A program made the translations under genes and the position numbers. The notes under the pieces were generated by a model. The model saw only the letters and a list, made by a program, of their open reading frames with translations. It was not told the DNA's origin and searched no databases. From an uncultured Pelagibacteraceae bacterium (lineage in GTDB: Bacteria > Pseudomonadota > Alphaproteobacteria > Pelagibacterales > Pelagibacteraceae), in assembly GCA_902605035.1 (NCBI GenBank), contig CACLBB010000004.1:30576-94575 (forward strand): a stretch of DNA of 64,000 bases. Direction: 5' to 3'. Numbering within the stretch: position 1 is the stretch's first letter; each line of letters opens with the position of its first letter. Shown here one piece after another: positions 6,384 through 25,128 of this stretch.

Positions 6384-6832
6384 AATTGTACAAAATCAAA
6401 AAATCAAATATTGATAATAGAGGCTTATATGCTAATCGAGATATCAAAGATGGAACAAAAATAATTGAATACAAAGGTAAAATTGTCACTAAAAAAAAAG
6501 TAGAGGAAAATTCTAAATTTGATAATGACAAAGCAATATACCTATTTAATCTAAATAAAAAATATGATCTTGATGGTGATTTTAAATTTAATACTGCAAG
6601 ATTAATTAATCATTCTTGTAACCCAAATTGTGAAGTTGCTGGAACTGGTTTGAAAATTTGGGTTTATGCAATTAGAGACATAAAACAAGGCGAAGAATTA
6701 TCTTATGATTACGGGTTTGGTTATGATGAATATTACAAAGATTTTCCTTGTAGATGTGGATCAAAAAATTGTGTTGGATATATTGTGCGAGAAGGCTCTA
6801 GATGGAGAATAAAAAAACAGAAATCGATATAA
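6380..6832 (+). CDS. SET-domain protein lysine methyltransferase
   Basis: A 150-residue stand-alone SET domain. It has the N-terminal NRGLYANRDIKDGTKIIEYKG segment, the AdoMet-binding INHSCNPNCEV motif (about residues 75-88), the catalytic GEELSYDYGF motif, and a post-SET zinc-type cluster CRCGSKNCVG. SET enzymes methylate protein lysines; bacterial targets are mostly unknown. The start is GTG at 6380, overlapping the dapE TGA as GTGA. It sits between dapE and a glycosyltransferase gene, which gives no clue to the substrate. The family call is firm, the role is not. Confidence 0.92.
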   Translation: MKLYKIKKSNIDNRGLYANRDIKDGTKIIEYKGKIVTKKKVEENSKFDNDKAIYLFNLNKKYDLDGDFKFNTARLINHSCNPNCEVAGTGLKIWVYAIRDIKQGEELSYDYGFGYDEYYKDFPCRCGSKNCVGYIVREGSRWRIKKQKSI

Positions 6833-7551
6833 TACTACCAAATTATAATAGTTCTGAATACATAGATGAAACTATTCAAAGTGTACTAAAACAAAATTTT
6901 ACAAATTGGAGATTAATTATAATTGACGATTTTTCAAATATTTACACACAAAAAAAAATAAAAAAATACGAAAAATTAAAAAAAATTAAAATTTATTGGT
7001 TAAAAAAAAATAGGGGTGCTGCCTATTGTAGAAATTTTGCAATAAATAAATCAAAATCAAAATACTTAGCTTTTTTAGACTCAGATGATATTTGGAAAAA
7101 AAATAAATTAAAATTACAATTAAATTATATGAAAAAAAACAACTATGACTTTACATATACATGTTATGAAACTTTTGGGATTAAATCTAGAAAAATTGTG
7201 CCACCGATCAAATTTAATTTTGATAATTTCATAAAAAATACATCTATAGCTACCAGTACAATGATGATTAAGAGAAAATTGGCAAAAGATACAAAATTTA
7301 CTGACACTAAAATTTGTGAAGACTATTATTTTAAATGTAAAATTTTAAAAAAAGTTAAATTTGCTTATTGTTTAAAAAAAAATTTAACAAATTACAGGAT
7401 AAGGAAAAATTCATTACAAAGTAATAAATTCAAAAATCTTTTCTGGATTTGGATGATAAACTATAAGTATAATAGATTAACTTTTGTTGAAAATTTAAAC
7501 TCATTATTAAATATATCTTTAAACTCAATAAAAAAATACGGTTTCAAATAG
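6802..7551 (+). CDS. Glycosyltransferase family 2
   Basis: This 249-residue GT-A fold enzyme begins with IDIILPNYNSSEYIDETIQS, the nucleotide-sugar-binding start of GT2 enzymes. It carries LAFLDSDDIW, the metal-binding DxD-type motif, at about residues 90-99. The C-terminal third is very Lys/Asn/Phe-rich with no recognised motif. GT2 enzymes build surface polysaccharide or modify lipids; the donor and acceptor cannot be told. The ATG at 6802 overlaps the SET gene by 31 bases, and no better start is visible before the catalytic domain. It ends one base before the stop of the convergent truA gene. Confidence 0.85.
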   Translation: MENKKTEIDIILPNYNSSEYIDETIQSVLKQNFTNWRLIIIDDFSNIYTQKKIKKYEKLKKIKIYWLKKNRGAAYCRNFAINKSKSKYLAFLDSDDIWKKNKLKLQLNYMKKNNYDFTYTCYETFGIKSRKIVPPIKFNFDNFIKNTSIATSTMMIKRKLAKDTKFTDTKICEDYYFKCKILKKVKFAYCLKKNLTNYRIRKNSLQSNKFKNLFWIWMINYKYNRLTFVENLNSLLNISLNSIKKYGFK

Positions 7552-8292
7552 TTAATATTTTATTTTAGCAAGATATAAACCATGTGCTGGAGCCGGGGGT
7601 GCACACATTTTTCTGTTTTTAGATAAAAACGCCTTTCTAAAATCTTTTAAATTCCATTTTCCTTCTCCTAGATATTTTAAGGAACCTACCATAGATCGAA
7701 CCTGTTGTTGTAAAAAGGACTCAGACTGAAAAGTTAAAACAATATTATGCTTGTTTTGTTTTATAGTAGCATTTTTCATAGTTTTAATTGGAGATTTGGC
7801 CTGACAGGAAGAAGCTCTAAATGTTGAAAAATTGTGAGTCCCTTTTAAAATACTTGCTCCTCTTTTCATAATTTTTACATCAAGTTTTTTCTTTATATGC
7901 CAGGCTTTATTTTTCTCTAAAACTAAAGACGAATACCTGTTAATAATAAAATATTTGTATATTCTTTCACGAGCGCTATGCCTAGCATGAAATCCATTTT
8001 GTTTTTTTTTTATACTTAAAATAGAAATTGAATATTTACTTAAAAAAAAATTAATAGAATTAATAAAAGTATCTTTATTAATTATTTTACCATTCGTTTT
8101 AAAATGAGCTGACTGTTCACTCGCATGAACACCTGCATCTGTTCGGCCTGATCCAATAATTTTAATTTTTTCTTTTAAAAATTTTGATAAAACTTTTTCT
8201 AGAACTTCTTGAACTGAAAGACCGTTTTGTTGGATTTGCCATCCAACAAAATTTGTTCCTAAGTATTCTACAATAATTTGATAGGTAATCAT
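7552..8292 (-). CDS. truA: tRNA pseudouridine(38-40) synthase
   Basis: TruA converts U38-U40 in tRNA anticodon arms to pseudouridine. The catalytic Asp is residue 52 in GSGRTDAGVHASEQ. FHARHSARERIYKYFI and the C-terminal QQVRSMVGSLKYLGEGKW region are also family signatures. The length of 246 residues is normal. The ATG at 8292 overlaps the fmt stop by one base, so def-fmt-truA form a tight run on the minus strand. Its 3' end abuts the GT2 gene with no spacer and no hairpin terminator between. Confidence 0.95.
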   Translation of the reverse strand: MITYQIIVEYLGTNFVGWQIQQNGLSVQEVLEKVLSKFLKEKIKIIGSGRTDAGVHASEQSAHFKTNGKIINKDTFINSINFFLSKYSISILSIKKKQNGFHARHSARERIYKYFIINRYSSLVLEKNKAWHIKKKLDVKIMKRGASILKGTHNFSTFRASSCQAKSPIKTMKNATIKQNKHNIVLTFQSESFLQQQVRSMVGSLKYLGEGKWNLKDFRKAFLSKNRKMCAPPAPAHGLYLAKIKY

Positions 8293-9209
8293 TAATTTAT
8301 TGTTTCACCCTGTTTAATTTTATTGCCCAACAAAAATTTGCTTATTAACTGTCTGCTTTTTCCCTCTTTTTGAATTTCAATAATTTTTATTGATTGTTCT
8401 TTGCAAGCAATTGTAATTTGATCATCAATTATTTTTCCTGCATTTCCGCTTTTGGTTACTATTTCTGCTTTCCATACTTTATATCTTTCATTTCGGTATT
8501 CAAACCAGGCGCCTGGATTCGGATTCAAGCCATTAATTTTAGCTAGAATTTTTTTTGCAGTTTGATTCCAATTAATTTTTCCTTCTGATTTCAAAATTTT
8601 TTTTGCATAAGTTGCTTCTTCATGGTTTTGTTCTAGAAATCTTGCCGCCCCTTTCTCTATTTTATTTAAAGCGTTTAGAATAGAATTTGCGCCTAATTTA
8701 GATAGAACTTTTGATAAAGTTAAAGAGTCTATTTTTTCATTTATTTGTATCTTATCTTGATGCATTACCGGTCCAGAGTCTAATTCTTCAACTATTTTCA
8801 TGATACTTATACCAGTTTGATTATCTAAATTCATAATTGCTCTTTGAATGGGGGCAGCACCCCTCCATTTAGGAAGCAAAGAGGCGTGCACATTAATAAA
8901 ACCAAATTTTGCAAGATTTAAAAATCTTTTCGGAATAATCTTTCCATAAGCTACCACAACCACGATATCTGGCTTTAATTTTTTCAAATAATTATATTCC
9001 TTATTATCTAAATTGTCAGGAGTTCTTAAATTTAATGAATGTGTTTTTGCAAAATTCTCAACACTTGAAGGGAAAATTTTTTGACCACGATTTGCCTTAC
9101 TAGCAGGTTGAGAATATACGGTTAAAACTTTATGATTAGAATTTATTAAAGACTCTAAAGTTGGCACTGAGAACTCCGGTGTTCCCATGAAAACAATTTT
9201 TTGTGACAT
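8292..9209 (-). CDS. fmt: Methionyl-tRNA formyltransferase
   Basis: Fmt formylates initiator Met-tRNA using 10-formyl-tetrahydrofolate. The N-terminal domain shows KIVFMGTPEFSVPTLESL, the active-site region INVHASLLPKWRGAAPIQ and IMKIVEELDSGPV. A shorter C-terminal OB-type domain follows NGLNPNPGAWFEY. The length of 305 residues is near the usual 310-315. It lies 5 bases downstream of def, the gene for the enzyme that removes the formyl group, which is the standard pairing. Confidence 0.96.
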   Translation of the reverse strand: MSQKIVFMGTPEFSVPTLESLINSNHKVLTVYSQPASKANRGQKIFPSSVENFAKTHSLNLRTPDNLDNKEYNYLKKLKPDIVVVVAYGKIIPKRFLNLAKFGFINVHASLLPKWRGAAPIQRAIMNLDNQTGISIMKIVEELDSGPVMHQDKIQINEKIDSLTLSKVLSKLGANSILNALNKIEKGAARFLEQNHEEATYAKKILKSEGKINWNQTAKKILAKINGLNPNPGAWFEYRNERYKVWKAEIVTKSGNAGKIIDDQITIACKEQSIKIIEIQKEGKSRQLISKFLLGNKIKQGETIN

Positions 9210-9214
9210 TGGTT

Positions 9215-9736
9215 TTAGACTATTACTCTCTCAATTTCTTTTTTGTGTTTTACAAGTTTTTTAATTATCATATCCTTTTTAAGTTTAGACAAATAGTCAA
9301 TAAACAAAATTCCATTAAGGTGATCGACTTCATGCTGAATACATGTAGCTAGTAATCCTTCTGCTTTAAGTTCTTTTTGTTTGCCATTCAAATCTACATA
9401 CTTAAGAGTGCACTCAGCTGGTCTTTCTATTTCTGCGAATTGACCTGGCAAAGATAAACATCCTTCTTCATAAACTGAAGTTTTTTTAGATTTATGTAAG
9501 ATCTCAGGGTTTATAAAAAATAAAGGTTCTCTATTTTCTTTATCCTTTGAAATATCAATTACTACTAATCTTTTTAAAATTCCAACCTGAACAGCTGCTA
9601 AACCAATTCCAGGAGCGGCATACATTGTTTCTAACATTTCCTGCATTAATTTCTTTATACTATCATCTACTTTTTCTAATGGTTTGCAAATTTTCCTTAA
9701 AATTGGATCAGGTTCAATTAAAATGTTTCTCTTCAT
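9215..9736 (-). CDS. def: Peptide deformylase
   Basis: Def removes the N-formyl group from nascent proteins. All three metalloenzyme motifs are present: GIGLAAVQVG (motif 1), EEGCLSLPG with the metal-ligand Cys (motif 2), and CIQHEVDHLNGILF with the HExxH ligands (motif 3). The length of 173 residues is normal. It starts with ATG at 9736, 19 bases downstream of the stop of a 581-residue envelope-type protein. Together with fmt and truA it forms a translation-related minus-strand operon. Confidence 0.97.
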   Translation of the reverse strand: MKRNILIEPDPILRKICKPLEKVDDSIKKLMQEMLETMYAAPGIGLAAVQVGILKRLVVIDISKDKENREPLFFINPEILHKSKKTSVYEEGCLSLPGQFAEIERPAECTLKYVDLNGKQKELKAEGLLATCIQHEVDHLNGILFIDYLSKLKKDMIIKKLVKHKKEIERVIV

Positions 9737-9755
9737 TCTTATATATATATTTTAA

Positions 9756-11489
9756 TTAAGATCTTTGTGGTAGTGCTGAAATTAAAATATCGTTTCTTAT
9801 TTTTCTTAAATTATTTTGATTTAAAAGATGCGTGATAAAATAAATTGTTTCTGGGTCTAAGCTATAAGCCTCATCTTCGCCAATTATTTCAACTAACTTT
9901 AGTGTTAAAAAGGCCGATTCTTTATTTTTTTCAAGCTTAAGTAAATCGTTAGGTATGCTGTATTGTTTGGAAATTTCTTGATAATCGAATTCCCTAGGTA
10001 TATCAAAACCATCTTTTGCTAGCGACTCGACTAAAGCTAAGTCTTTTGCTGAAAAAAAATATTTTCTATTTTTCTTTATTTTCTTGAAAATTTTTAAAAA
10101 GTCTTTTTGAGCCTTTTTTTGATCTATTTCATTCTGAAAATATTTTATCACTCTTGACCTATGTAGTATTTTGTCATCATACTTAATTTTTCCCAATAAA
10201 AACTCCTCTTCAGGTATTATATTTTTTTGTACTACTTCTATATAAGACTCCGAAACTTCGTCTAAATTAATTTCTTTTAATCTATCACTTAATATCTTTA
10301 CGAAAATATTTGATAAATCATCTTTTTGAAATAAATCTTTAAGTAAAAATAATAATTTTATTTTATTCTCTTCATTGTCAGAAAGTAAATATTTTTGATA
10401 AATTAAAGCTCTCGCATCAATATTATCAAATGTCTTATAACTATCCTCTGCTTCGATTAAACTTTTAAGATCAAAAGAGATATTTGAATAAATATCAAAA
10501 ATTTTCTTCTTATCAAACTGATTTTTATTTGCTGCTATTTCCAAACTTTTTAATTTTTCTTTGTCCCTGTTATCTTCTAATTGTATTAAATTTGCAGAAT
10601 TTAAATAGTCCCAGATTACTTTTTTGGTACTTTCCTTGGGTTCAAATTTAAAATTATTAATCGTTATGCTAGATAGGTAAAAATAAAGTAAATTGTCTTC
10701 TCTAATTTTTTTAGTTGTTTTATTAGTCACTCCTAGTAGAAAATTAATCTTATCATCAAAAAAATTGTCAGATTTTTTTTCCTCTCTCAATATATCTAAT
10801 TGTAATTGTGCTTCGCCTAATTTTTTTTTGTAAACTAAACAATAAATTTTAAATTTTTCTAAATAAGAATCTTTAATTTCTTTATCTAAAAAACTAGTTT
10901 TTTCACAACCATCTTTAATGTTTGCTTTTGCAATGTTGCTATCAACTAAATATTGAATAAGTTTTTTTTTGTTAGGAAAAGTTTCGTTTTGTTTAAGAAA
11001 CCTTTCTATGAGGTCTATTCTTTTATTTTCTATTAACCATTTTATTTTAAGATCAAGAAACTCTTTTTCTTTCATGCCTTTAGGTGGATAGGCAAAGGAT
11101 AAAATTGTATTTTCAAATAATTTAGATGCTGTATTTGAAAGTTTTATTTTTTCTATCCTTTTAAAGCTTGACCTTACTTGCTCAGCATCAGTTTCAATCC
11201 ACATATTTAAATTAAAATCATTATCTGCAGGATCGTAAATACCAAAAATTTTAATATTTTCTGTCTCTTCTGAAATTTTATCTTCAATTTTTATATTATT
11301 TAAAATGGGAGTGTTTGAAATTTTCAAATTATTTTTTGGTTTTAACCTTTCTTCATCTTGAATAATTATCTCGTTATTCTCTTTTTTGGACTTATTCCAT
11401 ATATCTATTTGATCTTCCGCAAGTAATATCGAAGAGTAGCATATAAAAATTAGAAAGCTTATGAATTTATTTAAGCTTTTTAATTTCAT
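9756..11489 (-). CDS. Large exported protein of unknown function
   Basis: I do not recognise this protein. From ATG 11489 (a four-codon longer start at 11501 also exists) it is 577 residues. It starts MKLKSLNKFISFLIFICYSS and continues through ILLAEDQ, a plausible signal peptide with cleavage near residue 25. The rest is charged, Lys/Glu/Asp-rich and probably mostly helical, with no cysteine motif or catalytic signature I can name. It starts inside the end of a 60-residue membrane-anchored protein and precedes def-fmt-truA. This suggests a periplasmic or outer-membrane-associated helical-repeat protein, possibly acting with its small neighbour. Confidence 0.75.
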   Translation of the reverse strand: MKLKSLNKFISFLIFICYSSILLAEDQIDIWNKSKKENNEIIIQDEERLKPKNNLKISNTPILNNIKIEDKISEETENIKIFGIYDPADNDFNLNMWIETDAEQVRSSFKRIEKIKLSNTASKLFENTILSFAYPPKGMKEKEFLDLKIKWLIENKRIDLIERFLKQNETFPNKKKLIQYLVDSNIAKANIKDGCEKTSFLDKEIKDSYLEKFKIYCLVYKKKLGEAQLQLDILREEKKSDNFFDDKINFLLGVTNKTTKKIREDNLLYFYLSSITINNFKFEPKESTKKVIWDYLNSANLIQLEDNRDKEKLKSLEIAANKNQFDKKKIFDIYSNISFDLKSLIEAEDSYKTFDNIDARALIYQKYLLSDNEENKIKLLFLLKDLFQKDDLSNIFVKILSDRLKEINLDEVSESYIEVVQKNIIPEEEFLLGKIKYDDKILHRSRVIKYFQNEIDQKKAQKDFLKIFKKIKKNRKYFFSAKDLALVESLAKDGFDIPREFDYQEISKQYSIPNDLLKLEKNKESAFLTLKLVEIIGEDEAYSLDPETIYFITHLLNQNNLRKIRNDILISALPQRS

Positions 11490-11649
11490 TTGTAATATCA
11501 ATTTTAAAATTTTGTTTTGGGGTTGGAAAATTTATTTTTTCTATCAAAAATATTCCTATGACTAAGATAAATAAAACTAGAATTATCTTTAATATTATCT
11601 TTACAATTGATCCGCTAATACTTTGATTTCGATTGTATTTAAGTTGCAT
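11467..11649 (-). CDS. Small single-pass membrane protein
   Basis: A 60-residue frame with one strong transmembrane helix (about residues 16-39, IVKIILKIILVLFILVIGIF). It has a basic N-terminus and a short charged C-terminal tail, IDITNEIKKLK. Its end overlaps the start of the downstream exported protein by 23 bases, and 61 bases separate it from the divergent aroK start. The clean hydrophobic pattern and operon position argue that it is real. No family is recognised. It may anchor a complex with the exported protein. Confidence 0.6.
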   Translation of the reverse strand: MQLKYNRNQSISGSIVKIILKIILVLFILVIGIFLIEKINFPTPKQNFKIDITNEIKKLK

Positions 11650-11710
11650 AGTTAAAAAATATATTTAAACTGAAAAAATAAGACATATTTGTGATAAATC
11701 AAATTTAAAA

Positions 11711-24130: not shown

Positions 24131-24199
24131 TGGCGGAGAGAGAGGGATTCGAACCCTCGAAACGGTTTCCCGTTTACACGCTTTCCAAGCGTGCGCCTT
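24131..24199 (-). pseudogene. Displaced 3' fragment of tRNA-Ser(GGA)
   Basis: These 69 bases are identical to 25039-25107, the 3' part of the intact tRNA-Ser(GGA). They run from the encoded CCA through the acceptor 3' strand, T arm, variable arm and anticodon arm to the edge of the D arm. Beyond 24199 the match decays to a few bases (one mismatch, then CC, then none). The 5' third of a tRNA is missing, so this copy cannot be functional. This is what is left when an element integrates in a tRNA gene and carries its own copy of the 3' end. Confidence 0.9.
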
Positions 24200-24209
24200 A
24201 AACCTTACC

Positions 24210-24276
24210 CTTTAGAGTGCTTGCCAATATTGCACCAAAACCCTGCACTTTAGAGTGCTTGCCAATATTGCACCAA
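24210..24276. repeat. Two tandem 29-bp direct repeats
   Basis: Positions 24210-24238 and 24248-24276 are identical 29-mers with a 38-bp period. They sit just inside the tRNA-fragment end of the element. The second copy is preceded so as to form an inverted repeat GCACT (24245-24249) / AGTGC (24254-24258). Such direct repeats near an att site could be arm-type integrase or excisionase binding sites. Two copies are too few to call a CRISPR array. Confidence 0.8.
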
Positions 24277-24303
24277 TAATTTTCAAAATTAAAAATTTAA
24301 TTA

Positions 24304-24993
24304 GTGACGACCTACCGGAGTCCAATTAAAATCAAGTTATGAGATTTAAATCTGATGATTTAATATTTGGCATAGAAGCAAAGAGGTTGCGAGACGTGTT
24401 TAAAAAATGTCCACATGACACTCTTAACAAAGTATTTTTTAGAGAAGAACTTAAAATTAGCAAAAAAAAATCTGATGAAATATTAGATGAAATGATTAAA
24501 GAAAAATATTTTATAAAAACAGATTATAAAGATGAGCTACAATTTCTAATTAAAGGAAACGCATTTCGGAATTTAAAATTTATAAAACCTATTACCAAGA
24601 AAGTTGCTCAAAAGTACGTTGAAGAACTTATAGATCGAGCACAAAAAATGAATAACGATGAGTATTATATTATGTATGTTGATGAAATTTACGCCTTTGG
24701 AAGCTTTATAACTGACTCTCCAGATTGCCAAGATATAGATCTATATATATCCTTAAAAAAGAAAGAACATATTTCAAATGAGGAAGCTAGAAAAATATCT
24801 ACTAAAAGAGCACCTCGTGCCACGAATTTTTTAGAACAACTAACTTGGGCATCAATAATTGAGCCTAATAAATTTTTAAAATCAAAAAATAAATACTTAA
24901 GTTTTCATGAGCAAGCAGATGCTGATAATGCATCAAATGGAAATTTAAAATTATTATGGAAAAAAACACCTTAACGCCGACCAGGTGACGACC
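24304..24993. repeat. 9-bp direct repeats flanking the cargo gene
   Basis: GTGACGACC occurs at 24304-24312 and again at 24985-24993, 27 bases before and 11 bases after the nucleotidyltransferase-like gene. It is GC-rich against an AT-rich background, so chance is less likely than usual. It could be a target-site duplication or a site for a bound protein. Confidence 0.45.
24339..24974 (+). CDS. Nucleotidyltransferase-fold protein with N-terminal helical (possible winged-helix) domain
   Basis: A 211-residue protein and the only gene in the tRNA-Ser insertion. Residues 1-90 look helical, with a pattern compatible with a winged helix. The central motif YAFGSFITDSPDCQDIDLYI fits the minimal nucleotidyltransferase pattern, GS followed about ten residues on by DxD, with both Asp present. 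The C-terminal part contains a Trp and Lys-rich tail. NTases of this type occur in toxin-antitoxin pairs, in phage defence and as RNA-modifying enzymes, but no partner gene lies beside it. The function is unknown. No clear ribosome site precedes ATG 24339. Confidence 0.7.
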   Translation: MRFKSDDLIFGIEAKRLRDVFKKCPHDTLNKVFFREELKISKKKSDEILDEMIKEKYFIKTDYKDELQFLIKGNAFRNLKFIKPITKKVAQKYVEELIDRAQKMNNDEYYIMYVDEIYAFGSFITDSPDCQDIDLYISLKKKEHISNEEARKISTKRAPRATNFLEQLTWASIIEPNKFLKSKNKYLSFHEQADADNASNGNLKLLWKKTP

Positions 24994-25038
24994 AAACAGT
25001 TCTATTTAATATATCAGTTGTGTATGACCTTTAAAAAA

Positions 25039-25128
25039 TGGCGGAGAGAGAGGGATTCGAACCCTCGAAACGGTTTCCCGTTTACACGCTTTCCAAGCGT
25101 GCGCCTTCAACCACTCGGCCACCTCTCC
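25039..25128 (-). tRNA. tRNA-Ser (anticodon GGA)
   Basis: On the minus strand a 90-nt tRNA folds with a 7-bp acceptor stem (GGAGAGG against TCTCTCC, last pair G-U), a D arm, the anticodon stem CACGC/GCGTG with loop TTGGAAA (anticodon GGA, reading UCC/UCU), a long class II variable arm with CGG/CCG pairing, the T arm GAGGG-TTCGAAT-CCCTC, discriminator G and encoded CCA. Its first base overlaps the stop codon of the upstream glycosyltransferase gene, so it is probably processed from the end of that long transcript. Confidence 0.96.

Follow-up and report, generated by a model that had tools for sequence, protein, structure and literature searches.

A small recombinase-less cassette at tRNA-Ser(GGA) in SAR11 carrying a single gene for a predicted winged-helix, minimal-nucleotidyltransferase-like protein

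SAR11 are among the most abundant bacteria of the ocean. They have been portrayed as having almost no recognisable mobile elements or prophages (PMC7771536). The closest described systems to the locus reported here are the additive flexible islands of Ca. Actinomarinales (PMC7771536) and those at tRNA-Lys of Ca. Methylopumilus in the Methylophilaceae (PMC10872708), in which small gene cassettes are added at a tRNA gene, each leaving a direct repeat of the tRNA end. Tycheposons, found in Prochlorococcus and Methylophilaceae, are likewise cargo elements that target tRNA genes in streamlined marine bacteria; they are 4–200 kb in length and carry a tyrosine recombinase (PMC10872708). CALINs, which are arrays of integron cassettes lacking an integron integrase (PMC11389934), offer a parallel in principle, being arrays of small cargo cassettes that rely on a recombinase encoded elsewhere. 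At the protein level, the nearest counterparts are the minimal nucleotidyltransferases (MNTs) of type VII toxin-antitoxin systems, such as MntA and HI0073, which have a nucleotidyltransferase (NTase) fold with a GS-x9/10-DxD motif. In Legionella, the GSX10DXD motif of MntA-type enzymes is required for AMPylation of HEPN (PMC11586414).

The window analysed is a 64,000 nt stretch of DNA from an uncultured Pelagibacteraceae bacterium with a 1.0 Mb assembly. It carries an intact tRNA-Ser(GGA) gene and, 908 bp away (start to start), a copy of the last 74 nt of that gene, in which neither ARAGORN nor the Rfam tRNA model recognised a tRNA (Table 1). The initial annotation had described a lone gene within this tRNA insertion, and only one ORF longer than 60 aa does lie between the fragment and the full tRNA-Ser; it begins with ATG, ends with TAA and specifies a protein of 211 aa. 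A 38 bp tandem duplication next to the tRNA fragment has shifted the right-arm repeat pair of this cassette from its usual offset. The insertion is probably a miniature tRNA-Ser(GGA) cassette that lacks an integrase and is mobilised in trans, with a stand-alone winged-helix, MNT-like NTase of intact motif as its single cargo.

Table 1. Features of the tRNA-Ser(GGA) cassette; positions are those of the window.
Feature	Position	Strand	Basis
Cargo gene, 211 aa winged-helix + minimal nucleotidyltransferase-type protein (predicted)	24339..24974	+	ORF, AF2 models, Foldseek, invariant GS...DxD
N-terminal winged-helix domain (predicted), residues about 1–69	24339..24545	+	Model secondary structure; AspA/TubR/IclR/MarR wHTH matches, weak E-values
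Nucleotidyltransferase domain (predicted), residues 84–211, with G121-S122 and D132-x-D134	24588..24971	+	Domain model, PDB matches
tRNA-Ser(GGA), intact 90 nt target gene	25039..25128	-	ARAGORN, Rfam tRNA
Copy of the 3′ 74 nt of tRNA-Ser, attachment-site remnant bounding the cassette	24131..24204	-	Sequence comparison
Inserted cassette, 834 bp (908 bp including one 74 nt core)	24205..25038		Left anchor directly joined to tRNA in other genomes of the genus
Left-arm direct-repeat pair GGTCGTC-ACCT-GGTCGGC, 11 bp period	24976..24993	-	Same positions (+45/+56 from tRNA 3′ end) in other cassettes having the arm
Right-arm repeat pair GGACTCC-GGTA-GGTCGTC, 11 bp period	24306..24323	-	At -89/-78 from the core in other cassettes
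38 bp unit, two copies (tandem duplication), in the right arm beside the tRNA fragment	24200..24275		Single copy in the sister cassette of G299

Searching 151 genomes of the genus at the DNA level showed that the left anchor and the tRNA gene are conserved, with different DNA between them. Many genomes have an empty site, in which the anchor is joined directly to the intact tRNA. Mapping of the site revealed 22 cassettes, 0.5–2.1 kb in length, in 21 genomes, and every one is bounded by the same 74 nt tRNA 3′ end. Their cargos are unrelated, and most are secreted or surface proteins: autotransporter-like proteins (578–579 aa, called by composition and without a Pfam match), trypsin-like proteases (matching Pfam Trypsin_2), lipoproteins and other small secreted or lipoprotein-like proteins. 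Units are arranged in tandem in five genomes (G138, G237, G135, G211 and G299), and in G299 the NTase cassette adjoins an autotransporter-like one. The locus has the features of an additive island: a direct repeat of the tRNA end at its far boundary, alleles of a single site that are empty or hold different cassettes, and tandem arrays. No recognisable recombinase was found among the cassette ORFs by inspection, or by Pfam searches of representatives.

Several variants of the locus were seen. Rows of different cassettes, with at least two cargo units split by 74 nt tRNA-Ser ends, occur in L060 (G138:C23), L049 (G237), L183 (G299:C19) and L181 (G211:C9). Between the anchor and tRNA-Ser, four loci (L058, L060, L062 and L072) have a conserved ORF for a 78 aa hydrophobic protein beside the anchor, inserted without a tRNA fragment, and two others (L051 and L059) have a methyltransferase-like gene on the strand opposite to most cargos, again with no tRNA fragment adjoining the anchor.

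Alignment of the cassette ends showed two conserved arms, the left one immediately 3′ of the tRNA and the right one ahead of the core. In most of the cassettes that have arms, these contain paired direct repeats of 7 bp, GGTCGTC or a variant of it, at an 11 bp period and at positions +45/+56 and -89/-78. The rule is not universal, since five cassettes with autotransporter-like cargo have no recognisable left arm or left repeat pair. Using a sequence-only model, strong right-arm matches (E < 1e-8) were found only at this tRNA among 169 genomes of the genus. Paired arm repeats of this kind resemble the arm-type sites of tyrosine integrases and, by analogy, may have the same role.

Cassettes have moved between species. 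In a comparison of the window genome with G299, the NTase gene has a dS of 0.28 (bootstrap 95% interval 0.17–0.43), against 1.1–3.0 for six adjacent genes, all upstream of the tRNA because the downstream genes were not recovered in the G299 assembly. An autotransporter-like cassette is more than 99% identical in three genomes (G233, G135 and G070) of different species with saturated flanks, with a dS of 0.01 compared with 1.3–1.4 for the flanking gene, and identity falls from 99% to 47–80% at the tRNA boundaries on both sides. Low divergence within cassettes beside high divergence of the flanks, with identity ending at the tRNA, indicates that transfer had site-specific boundaries. Homologous recombination is frequent in SAR11 (PMC7542561), and the 74 bp repeats could act as homology, so that the cassettes might have spread by ordinary exchange through the repeated tRNA, the repeats being scars of a lost integrative element. 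The failure to find a cognate integrase fits this explanation, but the sharp drop in identity at both tRNA boundaries of recently transferred copies does not, and exchange alone would not maintain paired-repeat arms at fixed positions over unrelated cargos. We consider it unlikely.

Under the preferred interpretation, of a cassette mobilised in trans, a tyrosine integrase encoded elsewhere is most likely to be what moves it. Where a tyrosine recombinase is seen in genomes of the genus, there is mostly a single one, and this lone chromosomal enzyme is a candidate mobiliser. The only tyrosine recombinase found in the source genome (L133 3386–4300, G000:C1) adjoins a glycosyltransferase-like gene. 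In Ca. P. ubique, an integrase has been reported in hypervariable region 2, also beside a glycosyltransferase-like gene (PMC2217521). No arm repeats were found near the lone chromosomal integrase. Serine recombinases were ruled out as mobilisers, as they are absent from all 16 genomes of the genus in which they were sought. Phage records and viral contigs contained no element with both arms and an integrase. The junction and core patterns had no matches in viral contigs, and a looser arm pattern hit 36 of these, none of which matched the arm model, indicating chance hits. An attP-like query, with the arms joined to the core, matched phage records only in tRNA-Ser-like sequence across the core. 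Two recombinases, of about 306–325 aa, are present in more distant genera of the order. One SAR11 genome carries a probable small prophage or satellite, with an integrase and a helicase/primase-like gene, ending near tRNA-Met (L134, G094:C4, about 6700–11700).

A broader and more tentative possibility is that tRNA-Ser is the site of an integron-like exchange of cassettes in SAR11. These interchangeable units, mostly of one gene and with conserved att arms, would depend for both excision and insertion on an enzyme acting in trans, the single tyrosine recombinase retained by most SAR11 genomes, and the NTase cassette would supply a stand-alone, DNA-binding nucleotidyltransferase.

The motif in the cargo protein is G121-S122, nine residues, then D132-I133-D134 (GS-x9-DxD), as the initial annotation had recognised, including retention of both Asp. 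The best sequence matches, to DUF6932 (PF22014; E = 6e-5, 24 bits) and Polbeta (PF18765; E = 8e-4, 20 bits), lie over the motif region, and both are below the gathering scores of 27 and 26.9 bits, respectively. Together with a near-threshold match to NTP_transf_2 (E = 0.024), they span residues 96–170. Of the families initially named for a search, NTP_transf_2 gave this near-threshold match, AbiEii (DUF1814) was not matched in Pfam at E values up to 10, and NCBIfam gave no relevant match to the window protein, its MntA model included.

Homologues were detected by tblastn in 21 plasmid records, from Arthrobacter relatives, Curtobacterium, Methylocapsa, Aeromonas, Bradyrhizobium, Rhizobium and Sinorhizobium, and several align across most of their length at 22–29% identity. 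In an alignment of the window protein with nine plasmid homologues from Actinomycetota, Alphaproteobacteria and Gammaproteobacteria, residues G121, S122, D132, D134, R100 and N105 are invariant in all ten sequences. The Gly, Ser and both Asp are likewise invariant in an alignment of homologues from genome contigs, so the motif is not a chance occurrence. Spacing varies slightly, the Arthrobacter homologues having GSX10DXD. Sequences in the multi-family alignment diverge too far for degenerate-pattern scanning. The winged-helix NTase represents a distinct, unnamed subfamily that has retained the Gly, Ser and both Asp across phyla. The same gene occurs in a close relative, the uncultured Pelagibacteraceae genome AH-321-A05 of the same genus, which places the host in SAR11. 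Against its sole close copy, the NTase gene has a dN of 0.09 and a dS of 0.28 (dN/dS about 0.3, from one sequence pair), consistent with purifying selection on the coding frame. Viral contigs and phage records held no close relatives of the protein. A housekeeping origin was ruled out, since only one weak match besides the window's own gene was found in 337 genomes of the class; homologues are sporadic, in keeping with the mobile nature first proposed for the gene.

An AlphaFold2 model of the full-length protein, built from six sequences derived from the window and the locus (pLDDT 87.5), shows a winged helix at the N terminus and an NTase fold after it; the NTase domain modelled alone gave a pLDDT of 89.9 and a pTM of 0.84. 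A β-strand (112–120), the GS helix (121–124) and the DxD strand (133–141) are placed as in Pol-beta-type enzymes. With the domain as query, Foldseek returned the nucleotidyltransferase 2rff first, then MntA (7ae9) and AAD(9), with HI0073 and AadA slightly lower, and the full model also matched the winged-helix proteins AspA and TubR. Both parts of the earlier architectural proposal, an NTase fold behind a possible winged helix, are thus supported by prediction. Since Foldseek E-values were above 0.001 and TM-scores about 0.4, the assignment rests on the motif, the topology and the consistency of the matches. The protein is consistent with a winged helix joined to a Pol-beta-type NTase fold, with the GS loop helix and DxD strand of that superfamily, and is a distant match whose nearest folds are those of minimal nucleotidyltransferases.

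On the strand where a third catalytic carboxylate would be expected from the topology, there is an invariant Ser188 and no conserved Asp or Glu, a position that varies among minimal members. With no evident third acidic residue, full NTase activity is not assured. The protein could instead regulate transcription through its winged helix, with an NTase domain that has lost catalysis and now senses a ligand. The N-terminal winged helix and the lack of a clear third carboxylate in any homologue would suit such a regulator, but invariant Gly, Ser and both Asp in distant homologues are hard to explain without catalysis, making it improbable.

From genus to genus the homologues have different neighbours, and only lineage-specific ones recur: an SOS peptidase or a pRiA4b ORF-3-like gene in Arthrobacter relatives and, in Bradyrhizobium, an ORF that has no significant Pfam match. 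A conserved operon partner was accordingly ruled out. The absence of a HEPN or AbiEi-like partner, remarked upon initially, extends from the one-gene cassette to the surroundings of the homologues, where annotation and Pfam disclosed none; the adjacent HEPN gene of type VII systems and the AbiEi or MenA gene of AbiE and MenT systems are both missing. As an orphan MntA-like enzyme, the protein might act alone as an antitoxin or regulator and nucleotidylate an RNase toxin, of HEPN or similar type, whose gene lies elsewhere or arrives on incoming elements. The MntA antitoxins and HI0073 are among the nearest folds to the domain, and MntA-type enzymes have GSX10DXD as their active-site motif (PMC11586414). 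Against this, no homologue examined has a HEPN partner next to it, and the MntA NCBIfam model was matched by one homologue only, at 14.3 bits with a cut-off of 60 bits, so that we doubt this explanation.

If the gene were a single-gene anti-phage or cassette-protecting device, its winged helix would sense foreign DNA or RNA and its NTase domain would nucleotidylate tRNA or protein, disabling cell or phage in a MenT-like or abortive infection manner. The gene is mobile, sporadic and lone, PADLOC gave sub-threshold matches to two candidate defence models (PDC-M63A and PDC-S09), and one sister cassette (L064, G197:C10, 642–2133) holds ORFs of 184 and 196 aa, which by eye resemble a restriction-type pair and have no Pfam match. 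The PADLOC matches are weak and limited to the NTase motif region, however, AbiEii is not matched, and the antitoxin gene that a constitutive toxin would require is absent. Most sister cargos are secreted, lipoprotein or autotransporter-like, the plasmid homologues lie outside defence clusters, and in a cassette family whose members share arms but exchange cargo, being cargo is in itself little guide to a defence role. Such a role is rather unlikely. Under the preferred reading, of a stand-alone enzyme, the protein would bind DNA through its winged helix, possibly including its own regulatory region, and the NTase domain would modify a protein or RNA target by adding a nucleoside monophosphate. 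A benefit to host or cassette may follow, and a regulatory or defence role is conceivable.

Relative to MntA and HI0073, the protein has an additional N-terminal winged helix and a C-terminal extension, has no HEPN partner, and falls below the curated cut-offs for MntA and NTP_transf_2. The cassettes are of a known kind, the tRNA-repeat additive islands, from which they differ in having a 74 nt core, conserved paired-repeat arms and mostly one-gene cargo. They differ from tycheposons in size and in carrying no recombinase, and from CALINs and integron cassettes in having a tRNA end, with arm repeats, as their boundary; by eye, the arms are unlike attC. No prior report of SAR11 tRNA-Ser cassettes was found in the literature searched, most subscription papers being outside it, nor was a description of gene transfer by such small recombinase-less cassettes.

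The conservation of the Gly, Ser and both Asp across phyla makes the substrate of the NTase a concrete biochemical question, but the cassette family is the more interesting result. Recombinase-less cassettes of up to 2.1 kb that cross between SAR11 species would explain part of the flexible genome, and would provide a minimal, testable att system. Small cassettes that move between species without a recombinase of their own represent an economical form of gene transfer.
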